From: Caldilineales bacterium
GTDB lineage: Bacteria > Chloroflexota > Anaerolineae > J102
Length of the DNA: 51,385 nt
NCBI GenBank assembly: GCA_019695115.1
Contig: JAIBAP010000042.1
Location: 1 to 51,385 of the forward strand
Reading direction: 5' to 3'
Part shown: positions 25,004 to 47,197 of the stretch, in pieces
Position numbering within the stretch: position 1 is the first letter of the stretch
How the letters are laid out: every line of letters starts with the position of its first letter
Notes under the pieces: generated by a model
Told to the model about the DNA's origin: nothing
Database searches by the model: none
What the model saw: only the letters and a program-made list of their open reading frames with translations
Position numbers and translations under genes: made by a program

Positions 25004-25517
25004 ACGGCGCGGCGATGCGCAGAAGCTTGACCGGCAGCCCTTCCATCAACCAGGCGATGCGAAAGGCGCTCAGCGGCTCCGCCCACAGGCTATCCTGCCT
25101 GAGCTGGCGCTCGATCTCGTCCACGAAGCGCAGCAGCGGTTCGCCCATCTGCCGCCATGCCTCCGGCCCCACCGTGGCTTCCACATAACGGCGCAGCTGC
25201 TGTGGGTCGGGCTGCCCGCCCACCAACAACTGCTCGACGACAGCGTTCAAGAACTGGCGGTGTTCGAGGATAGTGGCGTAGGGCCAGCCGGGTTGGGCTT
25301 CCAACTCGCGCAGGCCGGGCAGGGCGATCTCGGCCGCCTTCTGGACGATGGCGGCCAGGCGCTGCTCGCGGCCGGCCTGCTCCTTGCGCAACTCGGTGGC
25401 GGCGCTGTGCAAGGGGGCCGAGGCTGTGTCTTTCACCAGTTCGTAGCCCTGGTCGAAAGCTTTGACCAGAGCGAGATCGAGCAATTTGGCGAAAGCGAGC
25501 GTGGCTGAGGTGGGCAT
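24837..25517 (-). pseudogene. truncated unknown protein running into the GC-rich array
   Basis: ATG at 25517 with AAGGAG six bases upstream. Residues 1-170 look like a real, mostly helical domain (LAFAKLLDLALVKAFDQG, LPGLRELEAQPGWPYATI, PEAWRQMGEPLLRFVDEIE) that I do not recognise; N-terminal domains of large STAND/NACHT NTPases in these bacteria have a similar look. From about residue 171 the frame is translated repeat (VVGAWSPRPP repeated) up to a chance stop. The rest of the gene seems to have been lost when the array expanded. It may still be translated into a chimeric product. Confidence 0.6.
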
Positions 25518-25534
25518 GGGGTCTCCTTCGCTGT

Positions 25535-25562
25535 CAGGTGCGATTTCAGGTGCGTCGCACCT
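25535..25562. repeat. 33-bp palindromic element, collapsed copy
   Basis: AGGTGCGA, then TTTC, then AGGTGCGTCGCACCT: outer arms of the element are kept while the centre has been replaced. Located upstream of the truncated gene at 25517. Confidence 0.65.
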
Positions 25563-25612
25563 AAAGTTACCCTGGACAAACGCAGCTTGTCAATCGCCGC
25601 CCAGCCAGACGA

Positions 25613-25690
25613 ATTCTCCGAATTTGCACTAATTCGGAGAATGAACTCTCCGAATTTGCACTAATTCGGAGAATAACCTAGACTACGGCC
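25613..25690 (+). promoter_or_regulatory. twin palindromes and leaderless promoter of DUF4143 ATPase
   Basis: Two copies, 32 bp apart, of the inverted repeat CTCCGAATT-TGCACT-AATTCGGAG (12-bp arms in copy 1 at 25613-25642, 10-bp arms in copy 2 at 25647-25672). The loop of copy 2 is part of TTGCAC (25656-25661), which with a 17-bp spacer and TAGACT (25679-25684) makes a promoter six bases from the ATG. A protein bound to copy 2 would cover the -35 box, so this looks like an autoregulatory operator on a leaderless gene. Confidence 0.65.
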
Positions 25691-26824
25691 ATGATCCCAC
25701 GTCTACTTCAGACCCACATCACCGAACAGGTGCAGGCCGGGGGCAAGATCGTCCTCATCTACGGGGCGCGACAGGTCGGCAAGACGACGCTCGTGCAAAG
25801 CCTGTTGGCAACTCTGCCCTATCGTAGTCTGACGATCAGCGCCGACGAGCTGCGCTACGCCGATGTCCTCTCCAGTCGCGACCTGCGCCGATTACGCGGG
25901 CTGGTCGAAGGCTATGAGTTGCTTTTCGTCGATGAGGCGCAACGCATCCCCGAGATCGGCGTCAACCTCAAATTGCTGGTGGACAATCTGCCCAATCTGC
26001 GGATCATCGTCACCGGCTCGTCGTCGCTTGATCTCGCCAGCAAGGTTCAGGAACCGCTCACCGGTCGGGCATGGGTTCACCGCCTTTATCCGATTGCCCT
26101 GGCCGAGTTGGCGCAACTCCATAACCCGTTCGAGTTGGATGACATGATCGAGGAGCGGCTGATCTACGGCAGCTATCCCGAGATCTTCGCCCTGACCGGC
26201 GACCTGCAACGCCGCGACTACCTTCAGACCCTGGCCGCCAGCTACTTGTACAAAGATGTGCTGGAAATCGGCGGCATCCGCCATTCGCAGCAACTGCGCA
26301 ATCTCGTGCGCCTGCTGGCATTTCAGATCGGGAATGAGGTCTCATTGACCGAACTTGGCAGCCAGTTGCAGCTGAGCAAAGAGACGGTGGCCACCTATAT
26401 CGACCGCCTGGAGCAATCGTTCGTCGTCTTCCGCCTGGGTGGATTCAGCCGTAACTTGCGCAAAGAGGTCACCAAGCAGGACAAAATCTACTTTTGGGAT
26501 GTGGGCGTGCGCAATGTCGCCATCGACAATCTCAAACCATTGGCCGAGCGCAACGATGTGGGCGCACTCTGGGAGAACTTCGTCATCGCCGAGCGTCTGA
26601 AGCGACTGCACTATCGCCGGGAACTGGCCAGCCTCTACTTCTGGCGCACCTACAGCGGCTCCGAGATCGACATCGTCGAGGAAGCTGGCGGCCGCATCAA
26701 CGCCTTTGAGTGCAAATGGGGACGGGCGCGCACCCGTTCGCAAGAGACATTTCTGGCTGCCTATCCTCAGGCGACCGTTGAGATCATCAATCGCGAGAGC
26801 TACCGGGCCTATTTGGTGGGGTGA
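25691..26824 (+). CDS. AAA ATPase with DUF4143 domain
   Basis: 377-residue protein of the AAA_14/DUF4143 family. Walker A YGARQVGKTT (24-33), Walker B ELLFVDEAQ (76-84), sensor-like IVTGSSSLDL (107-116), then a winged-helix-like stretch (VSLTELGSQLQLSKETVATYI) and a C-terminal DUF4143 part with SGSEIDIV and FECKWG, a PD-(D/E)XK-like pair. Widespread in bacteria and archaea, often on variable islands; function unresolved. A winged helix could let it bind its own upstream palindromes. Leaderless promoter geometry. The last 37 bp are repeated 75 bp downstream in the same frame. Confidence 0.9.
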   Translation: MIPRLLQTHITEQVQAGGKIVLIYGARQVGKTTLVQSLLATLPYRSLTISADELRYADVLSSRDLRRLRGLVEGYELLFVDEAQRIPEIGVNLKLLVDNLPNLRIIVTGSSSLDLASKVQEPLTGRAWVHRLYPIALAELAQLHNPFELDDMIEERLIYGSYPEIFALTGDLQRRDYLQTLAASYLYKDVLEIGGIRHSQQLRNLVRLLAFQIGNEVSLTELGSQLQLSKETVATYIDRLEQSFVVFRLGGFSRNLRKEVTKQDKIYFWDVGVRNVAIDNLKPLAERNDVGALWENFVIAERLKRLHYRRELASLYFWRTYSGSEIDIVEEAGGRINAFECKWGRARTRSQETFLAAYPQATVEIINRESYRAYLVG

Positions 26825-26902
26825 AACGATGGGCGGATGGGGAGGATGGGCGGATTGATGGGATATCGCGAGAGCTACCGGGCCTATCTGGTGGGGTAAA
26901 AC
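26791..26902 (+). repeat. 75-bp-spaced direct repeat at the ATPase 3' end
   Basis: The end of the ATPase gene (coding RESYRAYLVG and stop, 26791-26827) recurs at 26866-26902 with two changes (TTTGG to CTGG region and TGA to TAA). The offset is 75 bp, exactly 25 codons. GATGGGCG-type 8-bp units fill the space between. This suggests a slippage duplication. Confidence 0.8.
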
Positions 26903-26954
26903 CGGCGGCGGCGAACTTTCCCCTCCTTCACCCATCGCCCCTCCCCCACCCCTG

Positions 26955-26963
26955 TGCTATACT
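26955..26963 (+). promoter_or_regulatory. extended -10 promoter before dinG-like gene
   Basis: TGCTATACT (TG at 26955-26956, TATACT at 26958-26963) matches an extended -10 element; no good -35 is visible. It would give a pyrimidine-rich leader of about 45 bases before the ATG at 27015, without a Shine-Dalgarno sequence. Confidence 0.5.
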
Positions 26964-27014
26964 CCCTCTCTCCCCCTCCCTCCCTGCGTCCCCCCCTCTC
27001 CCCCCCTCCCACCC

Positions 27015-29981
27015 ATGAGCCGCGTCTACGTCGCCCTCGACCTCGAAACCACCGGCCTCAACGCCGAACGCGATAGCATCATCGAACTGGGCGCCGTCCG
27101 TTTTCGCGATGGCCAGGTGCTCGACACCTTCAGCCAGGTCGTCAACCCCGGCCGGCCCATCCCGCGCGGCATCCAGCAGATGACCGGGATCAGCCAGGCC
27201 GAGGCCGACCGCGCCCCCAGCCTGGGCAGCGTGGCCTCGCGCTTCCGCAGCTTCATCGGCGACGCCCCCCTGGTGGGGCACAACATCAAATTCGATGTCG
27301 ATTTCCTCAAAAGCAACAATCTCTATCGCCACAACCAGGAAATCGACACCTGGGAGATGGCCGTCATCCTCCTGCCCGGCCTGCCCAGCTACAAACTCGG
27401 CCGCGTGGCCGAGGCCTTCGGTCTCAGCCTGGAAAACGCCCACCGCGCCTTCGACGACGCCGAAGCCTCGTTTCGTATCTTCGAGGCCCTGCGCCAGCGC
27501 GCCATCGCCCTGCCCGCCGCCATCTTGCAACAGATCAACAAGCTGGCCGCCAACTCCGATTGGAACCTGCGCGATGTCTTCGCCGAATGCGAGCGCGAGG
27601 CGGCGGCGCATTGGGGGCAGGGCCGGCCGGTCGAGAAGAAGAAAGACGCCGGGCCGCTATTCGACGAACTGCGCCCGCTGGAGCCGGTGGCCAAACCGCA
27701 GCCGCTGGATGTGGAGGACCTGGCCGGGATGCTGGGGCTGGACGGGCGCTTTGCCCTGGCCTTCGAGAACTACGAACACCGGCCGCCGCAGGTCGCCATG
27801 TTGCGGGCCGTGGCCGAAGCCTTCAACAAAAGCCGCCATGTCCTGGTCGAGGCCGGCACCGGCACCGGCAAATCCGTCGCCTACCTCATCCCCGCCCTGG
27901 CCTGGGCCAACCAGACCGGCCGCCGCGTCGTCGTCAGCTCCAACACCATCAACCTGCAAGACCAACTTTTTCATAAAGACCTGCCCGACCTGCGCCGCAT
28001 CCTGCCCTTCGATTTCAAAGTGGCGGTGATGAAAGGCCGCAGCAATTACATCTGCCAGCGCCGGCTGCAACACCTGCTGGAGCGCCCCGACCTGACCGCG
28101 ACCGAGATCAGCGTCCTCGCCCGCATCCTCGTCTGGCTGCCCGGCACACTGACCGGCGACCAGGCCGAGATCACCCTGATCAACGGCCGCGAGCGGGCCG
28201 TGTGGGGGCGCGTCTGCTCGGAAGGGGCCACCTGTTCGCCCAATCGCTGCAAAGACGCCGCTGGCCAGCCCTGCCACTACTACCGCGCCCGCCGTCTGGC
28301 CGAGGCCGCCCATGTCATCATCATCAACCATGCCCTGTTGCTGGCCGATATCGCCGTCGAGAACAACGCCATCCCGGCCTACAACTACCTGATCATCGAC
28401 GAAGCCCACCACCTGGAAGACGCCGCCACCAACGCCCTCACCCTGACGATGGACCACCCCAGCTTCATCGCCAACCTGCGCGAACTGGCCCCCACCGGCG
28501 GCGAAACCCGGGCCGTGGGCCTGCTGGCGGATGTGGCCACGGCCGTGCGCAATGCCTGCCCGCCCGACCGGGCCGAAAAGACCGTCGCCTTCACCCGCGA
28601 GCTGCACGAGGCCATCCCCAGCCTCGATATGCGCAGCTACGAATTCATGGATGCGGTCGAGCGTTTCATCAAAGACCTGATCGGCAAACGCAAGTTCGAG
28701 GATAACAAGTACGACATCAAACAACGAGTGACCAACACCGAGCGAGTGCAGCCGGCCTGGGTCAACGTCGAGATCACCTGCGACAACCTGACCACACCCT
28801 TCAAACGCTTTCTGGCCAACCTGGCCGGGTTGCTGGCGGCCCTGGCCGACCTGGGCAACTACAACATCGCCAAACTCGACGAACTGATCGGCTCGCTCAA
28901 CTCCATCACCCAGGCCCTGGCCGAGGTCTACGGCCTGGTCGAGGCCGCCGTCTTCAAACCCGACCCCGCCGCCATCTACTGGATCCGCTACAACCAGCAG
29001 CAGAACGCCATCTCGCTCCACAGCGCCCCCCTCCATGTCGGCAACCTGATCCAGACCGGGCTGATGCTGCCGCGCGACACCGTCGTGCTCACATCGGCCA
29101 CCCTGCGCACCCAGAATAGCTTCGATTACCTGCGCAACCGCCTGGCCATCGACGCCGCCGACGAGTTCGTGCTCGAAAGTCCCTTCGATTACCGCACCCA
29201 CGCCCTCGTCTACGTCCCCACCGACATCCCCGAACCGAACGACCCCGCCTACCAGACCCAGGTGGAGCAGAGCATCCTGCAGCTCGCCCTGGCCACCAAA
29301 GGCCGGCTGATGGCGCTGTTCACCTCCTATGCCCAGCTCCAGCGCACCGCCGAGGCCCTGCGTCCCCTGCTCGACGAGGCCGGGTTGACGGTCTACATCC
29401 AGGGCGAGGGCGGCTCGCGGCAGCAGATCCTCGACGCCTTCCGCAAGACCGACAAGGCCGTGATCATGGGCACGCGCAGCTTCTGGGAGGGCGTCGATGT
29501 GCAGGGCGAGGCCCTCAGCGCCCTCGTCATCGCCCGCCTGCCCTTCGCCGTCCCCACCGACCCCATCGTTTCCGCCCGCTCCGAGACCTTCGACAACGCC
29601 TTTTACCAGTATTCGGTGCCCGAGGCCATCCTCCACCTGCGGCAGGGCTTCGGCCGTCTGATCCGTTCGGCCAGCGACCGCGGCCTGTGTGTGCTGTTGG
29701 ATCGCCGCGTGACCAGCAAAAGCTATGGCCGGCTGTTCCTCGAATCACTGCCTGGCTGCACGATCAAGCGCGAGCCGCTGGCCAACCTGCCCCTGGTGGC
29801 GCGCGGCTGGCTGGCCGGGACGCTGGCCCCCGACCAGCCGCTGGCGCCGCTCCCCGCGCCCCGCCCGCCGCTTCCCACCTCTCGCCCCCCGGCTACGCCC
29901 CGCCGCCCGGCTGCCGCCGACCCTTTCCCCGACTTCGACGACTACCTCCCCGCCCCACCCCCGCCCGAATTCTGGGAATGA
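27015..29981 (+). CDS. dinG: DnaQ-DinG exonuclease/helicase fusion
   Basis: 988-residue XPD-like superfamily 2 helicase with an N-terminal DEDDh 3'-5' exonuclease. Exo I LDLETTGLN (9-17), Exo II GHNIKFDVDF, Exo III HRAFDDAEASF. Helicase: Walker A EAGTGTGKS (about 279-287), cysteines in CSEGATCSPNRC and GQPCHYYRAR (about 401-420) that fit a 4Fe-4S cluster, DEAHH box (about 461-465), MGTRSFWEGVDVQGE and the motif VI region HLRQGFGRLIRSASDRG. Probably unwinds forked or RNA-containing structures in repair. Firmicute-type DinG fusions have the exonuclease but often lack the Fe-S cysteines; this protein seems to have both. The C-terminus is proline-rich. Confidence 0.92.
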   Translation: MSRVYVALDLETTGLNAERDSIIELGAVRFRDGQVLDTFSQVVNPGRPIPRGIQQMTGISQAEADRAPSLGSVASRFRSFIGDAPLVGHNIKFDVDFLKSNNLYRHNQEIDTWEMAVILLPGLPSYKLGRVAEAFGLSLENAHRAFDDAEASFRIFEALRQRAIALPAAILQQINKLAANSDWNLRDVFAECEREAAAHWGQGRPVEKKKDAGPLFDELRPLEPVAKPQPLDVEDLAGMLGLDGRFALAFENYEHRPPQVAMLRAVAEAFNKSRHVLVEAGTGTGKSVAYLIPALAWANQTGRRVVVSSNTINLQDQLFHKDLPDLRRILPFDFKVAVMKGRSNYICQRRLQHLLERPDLTATEISVLARILVWLPGTLTGDQAEITLINGRERAVWGRVCSEGATCSPNRCKDAAGQPCHYYRARRLAEAAHVIIINHALLLADIAVENNAIPAYNYLIIDEAHHLEDAATNALTLTMDHPSFIANLRELAPTGGETRAVGLLADVATAVRNACPPDRAEKTVAFTRELHEAIPSLDMRSYEFMDAVERFIKDLIGKRKFEDNKYDIKQRVTNTERVQPAWVNVEITCDNLTTPFKRFLANLAGLLAALADLGNYNIAKLDELIGSLNSITQALAEVYGLVEAAVFKPDPAAIYWIRYNQQQNAISLHSAPLHVGNLIQTGLMLPRDTVVLTSATLRTQNSFDYLRNRLAIDAADEFVLESPFDYRTHALVYVPTDIPEPNDPAYQTQVEQSILQLALATKGRLMALFTSYAQLQRTAEALRPLLDEAGLTVYIQGEGGSRQQILDAFRKTDKAVIMGTRSFWEGVDVQGEALSALVIARLPFAVPTDPIVSARSETFDNAFYQYSVPEAILHLRQGFGRLIRSASDRGLCVLLDRRVTSKSYGRLFLESLPGCTIKREPLANLPLVARGWLAGTLAPDQPLAPLPAPRPPLPTSRPPATPRRPAAADPFPDFDDYLPAPPPPEFWE

Positions 29982-41475: not shown

Positions 41476-41843
41476 AGAAGGAACCTCGAAAGATTAGGGA
41501 TGATGTGCACCAGGCGCAAGCGACGCCGTGAGAAGCAGTCAGATCGCGCCAGGCTGCCCGGAAGGTCAGGTCAAGCTGGCTTTGGCGACGCCGTCGTGGT
41601 GCAAGGGCGTATTCTGCCTGCTTTTTCGGCTGCGGTCAAAAGCGCATTGCTTTGCCGCTTCGGGCCGACTCGCCCTGCTTGTGATCGCCATCTTGCCAGC
41701 TGAGGATGAAAGCGACGTGAACGCGGCTGTGCGGCAAGATGACAGTTTGGCAAGGTCGCCAAGACGACGACGGGCCAGGAAATTGGTGGGCGCCTGCCGC
41801 CTTTGGTAACATGGCTGCATCTACTTTCTTCAGGAGTTTCTGG
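41476..41843. other. intergenic region, divergent genes
   Basis: 368 bp between the divergent oxidoreductase and heme A synthase genes. I see no gene, hairpin or heptad array. AGGAG lies seven bases before the synthase ATG. Weak promoter-like boxes only (TTGTGA near 41680). Both promoters presumably lie here. Confidence 0.5.
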
Positions 41844-42878
41844 ATGACCGCATCCTCGCAACGTCTTATTCGCATCTGGTTGTACACCCTCTGCTTTTTG
41901 ATCGCCGCCATGGTCGTGGTTGGCGGTTTCGTTCGCCTCAGCCGCGCCGGGCTTTCGATTGTGGAATGGAACGTTCTCACCGGCGTCGTCCCCCCCATCG
42001 GCGCGCAGGCCTGGCAGGCGGAATTTGCCAAATATCAGCAGTCGCCTGAGTTTCAGCAGGTCAACAGCGCCATGACGCTGGCCGGTTACCGGCGCATCTT
42101 CTTGATCGAATGGGCGCACCGGCTCATCGCCCGGCTGGTGGGGTTGGTGGTGTTCGTCCCCCTGCTGGTTTTCCTCTTGCGCCAGACGGTTCCCTGGCGA
42201 AAATCCGGCATCTACCTTCTCATTCTGTTTCTGTTCGGCTTCCAGGGCTTCTTGGGCTGGATCATGGTTGCCAGCGGCTTGATCGACCACCCCCACGTCA
42301 GCCATTATCGCCTCACCATCCATCTGCTCACGGCCCTGAGCCTGTTGGCGATCTGCCTGTGGCAGGCGTTGAACCTGACCCCGCGCTTCGCCGCCGTGCG
42401 CCGGCTGCCGGCCATCCCCGGTCAGCGCGGCCTGGCTGTGTTCTTGCTGGTTGTGGTCATCCTCCAGGTCGCTTATGGCGGTCTGGTGGCCGGACTCAAG
42501 GCCGGACACGCCTCGAACACCTGGCCGACGATGTTCGGCTCTCTGCTCCCGCCCGGTCTGCTGTCGGCGATCACCCCCTGGTGGCAGAACCTGGTCGAGA
42601 CGGCGGCCACCGTCCAATTCATCCATCGCTGGTTCGCCTTCGTCGTCCTGCTGGTGGCTGGCGCCGTCTACTACCGGGCGCGCAAGACCGGCGACGCCGG
42701 CGCCGTGCAGGGCGGGGCGTTGGCCCTGATCGGCATCGTGGGGCTACAGATCCTGTGGGGGATTGGCGTCGTCATCTTCGGTGTGCCGCTTTGGCTGGCG
42801 CTCTTGCACCAGGCCACGGCCGTGCTTCTGTTCGCCACGACCATCTTCCTGAATCATCAACTCTGGCGAGGCGGCTGA
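41844..42878 (+). CDS. ctaA: heme A synthase, COX15/CtaA-like
   Basis: 344-residue membrane protein with about eight helices that converts heme O to heme A. Key parts: GGFVRLSRAGLSIVEWNVLTG split around the conserved Glu, EWAHRLIARLVG (heme His), SHYRLTIHLL, the second-half VQFIHRWFAFVV and LALLHQATAV (heme His pair). The Ser-containing GLS loop with EWN follows the COX15 type. ATG at 41844 follows AGGAG. Sits just before nosZ; heme A implies an aa3-type oxidase elsewhere in the genome. Confidence 0.93.
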   Translation: MTASSQRLIRIWLYTLCFLIAAMVVVGGFVRLSRAGLSIVEWNVLTGVVPPIGAQAWQAEFAKYQQSPEFQQVNSAMTLAGYRRIFLIEWAHRLIARLVGLVVFVPLLVFLLRQTVPWRKSGIYLLILFLFGFQGFLGWIMVASGLIDHPHVSHYRLTIHLLTALSLLAICLWQALNLTPRFAAVRRLPAIPGQRGLAVFLLVVVILQVAYGGLVAGLKAGHASNTWPTMFGSLLPPGLLSAITPWWQNLVETAATVQFIHRWFAFVVLLVAGAVYYRARKTGDAGAVQGGALALIGIVGLQILWGIGVVIFGVPLWLALLHQATAVLLFATTIFLNHQLWRGG

Positions 42879-43069: not shown

Positions 43070-45046
<1,977 letters not shown>

Positions 45047-45085
45047 GCCTCCATCTTCAACCCACCCCACCACCCCGTTTCTCCA

Positions 45086-45129
45086 CCTGACAGGCCCGGT
45101 GGCTTGCCGCCGGCCTGTCAGGTTTTCTT
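45086..45129 (+). terminator. rho-independent terminator after nosZ
   Basis: Perfect 11-bp outer arms (CCTGACAGGCC at 45086-45096 and its complement ending 45122) with inner pairing GGTGGC/GCCGCC, followed by TTTTCTT. It separates nosZ from the nosB-like gene, so downstream genes would be made at lower levels or depend on read-through. Confidence 0.88.
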
Positions 45130-45152
45130 ACCTTTTTCAGAGGTGAGCAACT

Positions 45153-45809
45153 ATGACCAATATCGACCGAGTCATCGGTCCTCGCATCCCTGCCGAGGAA
45201 ATGAGAACCCGCGGCGGGCGCTACATCTTGCCCACGGCGCTGTTCCTGGTCGCGACCGTCCTGCTGCTGATCTCCATCTTCCTCCCCTACTGGCAACTCA
45301 CGCTCCACGCCCCGCAATATCCCGAGGGGCTGACCGTCACCTCCTATCTCAACCAGATGTCCGGCGACGTGCACGAGATCGATGGTTTGAACCACTATAT
45401 CGGTATGCGCCCCCTGGGCGAGGCGGCGGTGTTCGAACGCTCGGTCTCGATCATCGGTGTGATCGTGCTGATCCTGCTCGTGTTGGCGGCTGTCTTCGTC
45501 CACAACCGTTGGGCGGCGCTGCTGGCCCTGCCGGCGCTGCTGTTCCCGGCCATCTTCCTGGCCGACCTGCAGTTCTGGCTGGCGAATTTCGGCCAGCATC
45601 TCGACCCCAAGGCTCCCCTTTCCAGCAGCATCAAACCCTTCATCCCGCCGGCTTTGGGCGAAGGACACATCGCTCAATTCAGCACTACCGCCGTGCCTGC
45701 CATCGGTCTGTGGCTGGCGATCCTGGCCTCGGCCCTGATCCTGGTGGGTCTCTACTTCCACCGCCGCGCCTACAAGCCGTTGGTCGAAGCGCAGTTGGCC
45801 GAGGCCTAG
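45153..45809 (+). CDS. NosB-like membrane protein
   Basis: 218 residues with four predicted membrane helices (about 27-47, 98-118, 121-143, 184-208). The gene lies directly after nosZ and before nosD, the place of nosB in clade II clusters, and the protein is of similar type. Function unknown even in studied organisms; presumed to help NosZ maturation or electron supply. The loop between helices 1 and 2 (GDVHEIDGLNHYIGMR) contains two His residues. Start follows AGGTG. Confidence 0.75.
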   Translation: MTNIDRVIGPRIPAEEMRTRGGRYILPTALFLVATVLLLISIFLPYWQLTLHAPQYPEGLTVTSYLNQMSGDVHEIDGLNHYIGMRPLGEAAVFERSVSIIGVIVLILLVLAAVFVHNRWAALLALPALLFPAIFLADLQFWLANFGQHLDPKAPLSSSIKPFIPPALGEGHIAQFSTTAVPAIGLWLAILASALILVGLYFHRRAYKPLVEAQLAEA

Positions 45810-45826
45810 CCAGCTGGCGGCCTGCG

Positions 45827-47197
45827 ATGAAAGCCTTCGTCCCCTTCTTGGCCCTGGTCGTCTTCCTGGTTGCCGCCCTGGCGCCGGCTTCGGCTCAGCA
45901 ACCTGGCTTCGACCTGGCCGCCGCCCTGGCCGCTGCCCAACCAGGCGAGACCGTCACCGTTCCGGCAGGCGTCTATCCCGGCCCGCTTGTCATTGGCCGC
46001 TCGCTGAAGCTGGTCGGCGAGGGCCGGCCGGTCATCCAGGGTGACGGCCGGGGCAATGTGGTGGCGATCACCGCCCCTGATGTCACCTTCGATGGTTTTG
46101 TGGTGCGTGGCAGCGGCGACTCCATCGACCGCGAGGACGCCGGCATCCTTGTCAAGGCTCCGCGTGCGATCATCGCCGACAACCGACTTGAGGATGTGCT
46201 CTTCGGCATCTATTTGCAGGAAGCGCCCGAGAGCACCATCCGTGCGAATACCGTGCTGGCCAAGGATCTGCCGATCTCGCGGCGCGGGGATGGCATCAAA
46301 ATCTGGTATAGCCACAACAGCTTGATCGAAGGGAATCACGTGCAGGGCAGCCGCGACATTCTTTTCTGGTTCTCGCCCGACAGCATCATCCGCAACAACG
46401 TCGTCGAAGATGGCCGCTACGGCATGCACTTTATGCAGACCAGCCAGCAGATGATCGAGAACAATGTCCTGCGGGGCAATGCCGTGGGCATCTATTTGAT
46501 GTACGGCAAGGGTTTCACCTTGCGTCGCAACCTCCTGCAAGACAATCACGGGCCGAGCGGCTACGGCCTGGGATTGAAGGATGTGGATGATGTCGTGGTC
46601 GAGGGCAACCGCATGATTAGCAATCGATTGGGGGTTTATGTCGACAATTCGCCTGTCAGCAGCGATGCCTTCGTCCGCTTCGAGAACAATCTTTTTGCCT
46701 ACAACGAGATCGGCGCCAATCTGCTGCCGCTGGTGCAGCGCAATACCTACACCCAGAACATCTTCCAGGACAACGGCGAGCAGATCGCCATCCAGGGCGG
46801 CGGCGAATTGGTCGGCAACCAGTGGTCGGACGAGAGCGGTCTCGGCAATTATTGGAGTGACTACGCCGGCTTCGACGCTGATGGCGACCGGGTGGGCGAC
46901 ATCCCCTACAAATCCATCAGTCTGTACGAGAACCTGATGGCGCTCTATCCTGAATTGCGACTTTTCCAGCTTAGCCCCGCCGCCGATGCCCTCGATTTCG
47001 CCGCCACCGCCTTTCCGCTCTTCCAGCCGCGGGCCAAGATGAGCGATGAGCGACCGTTGATGGCGCCGCCCGCCCTCCCCCTTGTCCCTGGCCTCAGCCG
47101 CCCGCCCTTCCTGGGTAATGCCCTGGCGGCGTTTGCCATGCTGTTCCTGGCCGGCCTGATCCTCCTCGCGGCCACCCGCTCCCATCGTCTCTCATGA
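45827..47197 (+). CDS. nosD: NosD copper-site maturation protein
   Basis: 456 residues. Signal peptide with ASAQ cleavage site (about 1-23), then a right-handed beta-helix built of N-x-(V/I)-type turns (GNHVQG, NNVVEDG, NNVLRGNAVGIYLMYG, GNRMISNRLG), ending in GNYWSDYAGFD...GDIPY, the NosD signature, and one C-terminal membrane helix (about 430-452). With NosFY it is needed to build the CuZ sulfide centre of NosZ. The end overlaps the nosF start (ATGA). Confidence 0.95.
   Translation: MKAFVPFLALVVFLVAALAPASAQQPGFDLAAALAAAQPGETVTVPAGVYPGPLVIGRSLKLVGEGRPVIQGDGRGNVVAITAPDVTFDGFVVRGSGDSIDREDAGILVKAPRAIIADNRLEDVLFGIYLQEAPESTIRANTVLAKDLPISRRGDGIKIWYSHNSLIEGNHVQGSRDILFWFSPDSIIRNNVVEDGRYGMHFMQTSQQMIENNVLRGNAVGIYLMYGKGFTLRRNLLQDNHGPSGYGLGLKDVDDVVVEGNRMISNRLGVYVDNSPVSSDAFVRFENNLFAYNEIGANLLPLVQRNTYTQNIFQDNGEQIAIQGGGELVGNQWSDESGLGNYWSDYAGFDADGDRVGDIPYKSISLYENLMALYPELRLFQLSPAADALDFAATAFPLFQPRAKMSDERPLMAPPALPLVPGLSRPPFLGNALAAFAMLFLAGLILLAATRSHRLS

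Follow-up and report, generated by a model that had tools for sequence, protein, structure and literature searches.

A predicted self-read operator at the promoter of a DUF4143 ATPase gene from a Caldilineales bacterium

The 51,385-nt stretch of DNA analyzed here (the window), a contig of a Caldilineales bacterium, carries on its plus strand a DUF4143 ATPase gene at positions 25691–26824, which encodes a protein of 377 amino acids (P0001). The protein matches PDC-S01, the PADLOC family of COG1373-type ATPases composed of AAA_14 and DUF4143, over its full length (475 bits, 3.5e-143, residues 1–375 of 377), and both Pfam domains score above the gathering cut-off (PF13173, 93.7 bits; PF13635, 146.8 bits). 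PDC-S01 has been described as an ATPase fused to PD-(D/E)-X-K and is an unvalidated phage-defence candidate, with about 39,000 occurrences in one survey and fourth place among the most common defences across prokaryotes (PMC12988326). That description presents an ATPase-nuclease and mentions neither regulation, nor an operator, nor a DNA-reading winged helix. The gene is patchy in distribution and is also found on plasmids and phage-like records. The genome studied here encodes nine full-length family members, including the window ATPase, plus one partial match. No obvious defence island lies directly around the ATPase gene in the window, which also contains an Eco57I-type DNA methyltransferase (184–1833), CtaA (41739–42875) and a nitrous-oxide-reductase/NosD pair (43070–47194). 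The last ~30 bp of the gene (26790–26827) recur ~75 bp downstream at 26865–26902 (ATCGCGAGAGCTACCGGGCCTATYTGGTGGGGTRAAAC), as if the 3′ end of an earlier homologue had been left behind.

An AlphaFold2 model of the protein (mean pLDDT 93) comprises an AAA+ core, a lid, a winged helix and a C-terminal domain. A sequence search of the PDB with the ATPase returned P-loop noise only. The AAA_14 ATPase core (25691–26110, plus strand; Pfam match to residues 19–140) contains the Walker A motif GARQVGKTT and the Walker B motif LLFVDEAQ, its residues G30, K31, T32, D81 and E82 are invariant, and it is also visible in the model. What the initial annotation had noticed as a winged-helix-like segment appears in the model as a high-confidence winged helix-turn-helix (wHTH), a feature also assigned by fold comparison (residues 199–268; 26285–26494, plus strand). 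It is built from helices 199–211 and 219–226, followed by the recognition helix (residues 229–242; 26375–26416, plus strand) and a wing that extends to residue 268. Residue 230, encoded at 26378–26380, is the putative base-reading residue. The Pfam families HTH_IclR and HTH_5 match the equivalent stretch of a Thermus relative. The C-terminal part of DUF4143 (26558–26821, plus strand) is nuclease-like; among 66 sequences D327 and E340 are invariant and K342 is present in at least 90%, a PD-(D/E)XK signature that marks it as a candidate nuclease.

Directly ahead of this gene, in the region read from 25201 to 27300, CTCCGAATT-TGCACT-AATTCGGAG occurs exactly twice (25616–25639 and 25648–25671). 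The two near-identical 24-bp palindromes, with their six-base loop and a centre-to-centre distance of 32 bp, are as initially annotated, base for base. The predicted distal operator spans 25613–25642 and is a perfect 12+6+12 palindrome, ATTCTCCGAATT-TGCACT-AATTCGGAGAAT; the predicted proximal operator, TCTCCGAATT-TGCACT-AATTCGGAGA, spans 25647–25672 with its dyad axis between 25659 and 25660, and neither is assigned a strand. Together the copies form a 32-bp direct repeat (25611–25642 and 25643–25674, 97% identical). Allowing up to three mismatches, CTCCGAATT-N6-AATTCGGAG has two matches in the whole window; shuffled sequences gave a mean of 0.02 and never two. At the same tolerance the entire 5.99-Mb genome holds one further match, an unrelated site with three mismatches. 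The genome search found no matching copy at the other end of the ATPase gene, and a nucleotide search of the operator region against plasmids gave no match.

The −35 hexamer TTGCAC (25656–25661, plus strand) lies inside the proximal operator, whose palindrome is centred on it, and its loop forms part of the −35 as first proposed. A 17-bp spacer (25662–25678) separates it from the −10 hexamer TAGACT (25679–25684, plus strand), which starts 12 nt before the ATG at 25691 and leaves six bases in between, a leaderless geometry; all of these coordinates agree with the earlier reading. A consensus promoter scanner reported no promoter here. As the hexamers match the consensus at four of six positions each (8/12 together) and are too weak for such a scanner, the promoter call rests on comparison with relatives. 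Orthologues have TATAAT, TATCAT, TATACT or TTACAAT at the −10 position. Among 64 non-redundant family genes whose −10 lies near the start, its position is exactly −12 in 45, which places the predicted transcription start at or beside the ATG. Operator dyad axes in these 64 promoters peak 19–20 bp upstream of the −10, i.e. on the −35 (z 5–6); arm complementarity shows a further peak at 36.5 bp, between two tandem operators (z 3.5), and a third at 10–10.5 bp. The candidate operator therefore overlaps the promoter of its own ATPase gene.

This geometry bears on whether the twin palindromes act as RNA, in the form of an attenuator, a leader hairpin or a terminator. As RNA, the region would form a stable structure (−33.7 kcal/mol, z −6.8), but any DNA palindrome would fold likewise. 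With a predicted start at or beside the ATG the palindromes stand outside the mRNA, a terminator-like T run is absent, and the dyads are locked to the −35. We rejected the RNA reading on the leaderless start geometry, the missing T run and the dyad register, and regard it as scarcely credible.

The palindromes are kept at orthologous genes. A scan of 61 related genomes located the twin palindromes in one, G048, followed by a 75%-identical ATPase whose gene is apparently frameshifted near its start. When 396 genomes of the class were scanned with the operator pattern, nine sites were found in five genomes (control, 0), and all nine stood directly upstream of an ATPase orthologue of 66–100% protein identity. 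The distal operator is the same site at the orthologues L211/L031, L214 and L215/L015, and the position of the proximal operator is kept in the five genomes. A second clade of 19 genes (tree support 0.999) has a different operator, ACTCC-N7-TTGACA-N7-GGAGT; its pattern gave 15 sites, in 15 of 201 genomes (controls, 0). For 14 of these sites the gene directly downstream is a DUF4143 gene; the fifteenth precedes a Phd/Doc-like pair. The initial annotation had held that loss of the palindrome from orthologues, or many copies at unrelated genes, would speak against an operator; instead, the orthologues in all five genomes carry it and the sites of both patterns gather at DUF4143 genes. Its proposal of a dedicated operator is supported, but one fixed operator is too narrow a picture, as clades differ in its sequence and sometimes in its position. 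In L008 and the Thermus genes it straddles the −10, and a clear palindrome is missing from some family members.

The habit extends beyond the close orthologues. For 99 relatives drawn from many phyla, the best upstream inverted repeat scored 17.8 bits in the median, compared with 11.2 in 200 flanking-gene controls (p 2.6e-18), and 18 bits were reached by 47/99 family members and 19/200 controls. As about half of the loci lack a strong palindrome, the sequences suggest a habit that is common in the family and not universal. Distant DUF4143 genes, the only relatives that a first viral scan reached, have weaker palindromes that nevertheless exceed controls (40 genes, p 3.7e-4). More distant DUF4143 ATPases have other palindromes, often in the same register, and mostly leaderless starts. 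When clade A is aligned in a fixed register, changes fall on both arms in 10 of 15 pairs, with 36 both-sides cells compared with 13.8 after shuffling (0/500 shuffles as high), and this compensatory signal is lost when the register is slid by one base. The symmetric covariation looked for in aligned upstream regions, a check that had been suggested at the outset, is thus present.

Other arrangements were seen within the family. The paralogue L005 of the same genome has no palindrome at the −35; it belongs to one clade with L021, L022, L038, L161, L162 and L165, in which AAATTC and GAATTT half-sites, ~18 bp apart, flank the −10 and replace the palindrome on the −35. The distant paralogues L008, L012, L007 and L010 of the same genome have other long upstream palindromes that for the most part differ between the genes (e.g. 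CTCATGCATATTTGC-N9-GCAAATATGCATGAG).

Which protein reads the operator was approached through co-variation. A line-up of proteins and operators hinted that the base after TCC tracks residue 230. An unbiased scan of 299 protein positions ranked residue 230 first for the base next to TCC (z 6.9), and so did a rescan of 257 positions over 32 non-redundant operators with permutations stratified by clade (z 7.7, 0/500 permutations); ranks 2 and 3 in the latter, residues 220 and 222, also lie within the wHTH. The residue-230 rule, fixed beforehand, was right at five of seven new loci. Both failures and the earlier exceptions carry K234, one helical turn beyond residue 230, and the two residues together fit 32/32 operators, the K234 part being post hoc. 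The pairings arose independently on the tree, each at least twice (Y with T twice, H with C twice, V plus K234 with C twice), a pattern difficult to account for if the ATPase made no contact of its own with the base. Nine loci with no callable operator were left out of this analysis. The code comes from a sister subfamily, and the window protein, which has K230 and a G at the corresponding operator base, belongs to a small clade of its own outside the set that built the code. When the recognition helix as a whole was compared with operator distance in a partial Mantel test, the result was null (r 0.02, p 0.40). In the full matrix of operator positions and residues, phylogeny alone makes position +8 correlate with a large number of residues; the analysis was therefore confined to the +3 base, with stratified permutations. 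As the operator base co-varies with residue 230 and K234 of the recognition helix, it is very probably the ATPase that reads its operator, in line with the initial suggestion that its winged helix could bind its own promoter.

A separate transcription factor encoded elsewhere might instead bind the palindromes and regulate the ATPase gene. Separate repressors classically bind palindromes at −35 boxes, and one locus, L206 (G491:C382:517-546), has a clade-A type operator and promoter ahead of a Phd/Doc-like toxin–antitoxin pair rather than a DUF4143 gene; a search of that genome, which is 86% complete, turned up no clade-A ATPase. As that ATPase was not found there, the promoter looks captured by the toxin–antitoxin pair. 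Against a separate factor, the operator is confined to the ATPase gene in each genome and changes along with the ATPase's own recognition helix, so that such a factor would need to co-travel unseen across phyla. We consider it improbable.

The palindromes could also serve mainly as a binding or cutting site of the nuclease part, in self-recognition, recombination or replication, and not as a transcriptional operator. The PD-(D/E)XK-type residues would agree with this, as would the patchy occurrence of the gene and its presence on plasmids and phage-like records, and the protein may fold like STAND and Orc1/Cdc6 ATPases. Among solved structures it comes closest to the archaeal Walker ATPases 2qen and 2fna, the alignment covering ATPase core, lid and winged helix across ~255 residues (Z ~16); STAND proteins and Orc1/Cdc6 come next, with Z 12–14 for NB-ARC proteins and Orc1/Cdc6, one match being Orc1/Cdc6 on origin DNA (Z 12.8). 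These alignments, at 11–18% identity, end at about residue 280, and the C-terminal nuclease-like part is unmatched. The sites, however, are fixed to the −35/−10 register and occur only upstream of the start codon, with no matching copy at the other end of the gene, which makes a nuclease site very unlikely.

We therefore favour the view that the palindromes are an operator dedicated to the ATPase gene, with the encoded protein as its reader and autorepression, possibly cooperative, as the predicted effect; from the sequence comparisons we judge this likely. Position, conservation, exclusivity, the matched changes in the two arms and the link between operator base and recognition helix all support it at the level of sequence. 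Each palindrome would probably be bound by a dimer whose winged helices grip the CTCC half-sites. As the proximal palindrome lies on the −35 and the distal copy about three helical turns upstream, the bound ATPase would exclude RNA polymerase, and autorepression is the likeliest outcome judged by operator position. The tandem arrangement at about three turns suggests that binding may be cooperative. Relief of repression might come, as a guess, from the ATP state, the nuclease cycle or invader DNA.

Similar designs are known. MarR-/ArsR-type winged-helix autorepressors likewise have a palindrome over the −35 of their own gene, and the nearest solved folds of the wHTH modelled alone are the repressors MepR, SlyA, CzrA and SmtB (E ~0.004, TM ~0.6); their DNA-binding domain sits in a small dimeric repressor, whereas that of the window protein sits in an AAA+ ATPase-nuclease. 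Type Ia ParA partition ATPases bind an operator at their own promoter and repress their own operon (PMC8465637), but the window ATPase is of a different ATPase class. Self-regulating operators have thus long been known as a kind. No operator for DUF4143, COG1373 or PDC-S01 was reported in the open-access literature searched.

In Thermus, a gene that encodes AAA_14 and DUF4143 domains, TT_P0211, rises 6.6-fold when plasmid DNA is present (PMC4406477). The DUF4143 gene of Thermus HB27, probably TT_P0211, has the promoter TTGTCT-17-TATCAT-6-ATG and a palindrome spanning its −10, and the 6.6-fold rise fits an inducible promoter. On Thermus plasmids (L111 and L265), a DUF4143 ATPase gene, near type I-E cas1/cas2 in L111, has a palindrome over the −10 and leaderless geometry and is a probable homologue of TT_P0211.

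A self-read operator would offer a binding assay, a reporter for relief of repression and a way to predict DNA targets from sequence. More tentatively, and with doubt on our side, the ATPase may be a candidate antiviral switch made of one protein, with sensor, repressor and nuclease in a single chain: at rest it would occupy its own promoter, and on invasion it would change state, leave its operator, and be both produced and activated. Each lineage would then have a private operator set by the two-residue code, so that many paralogues could work in one cell without cross-talk.
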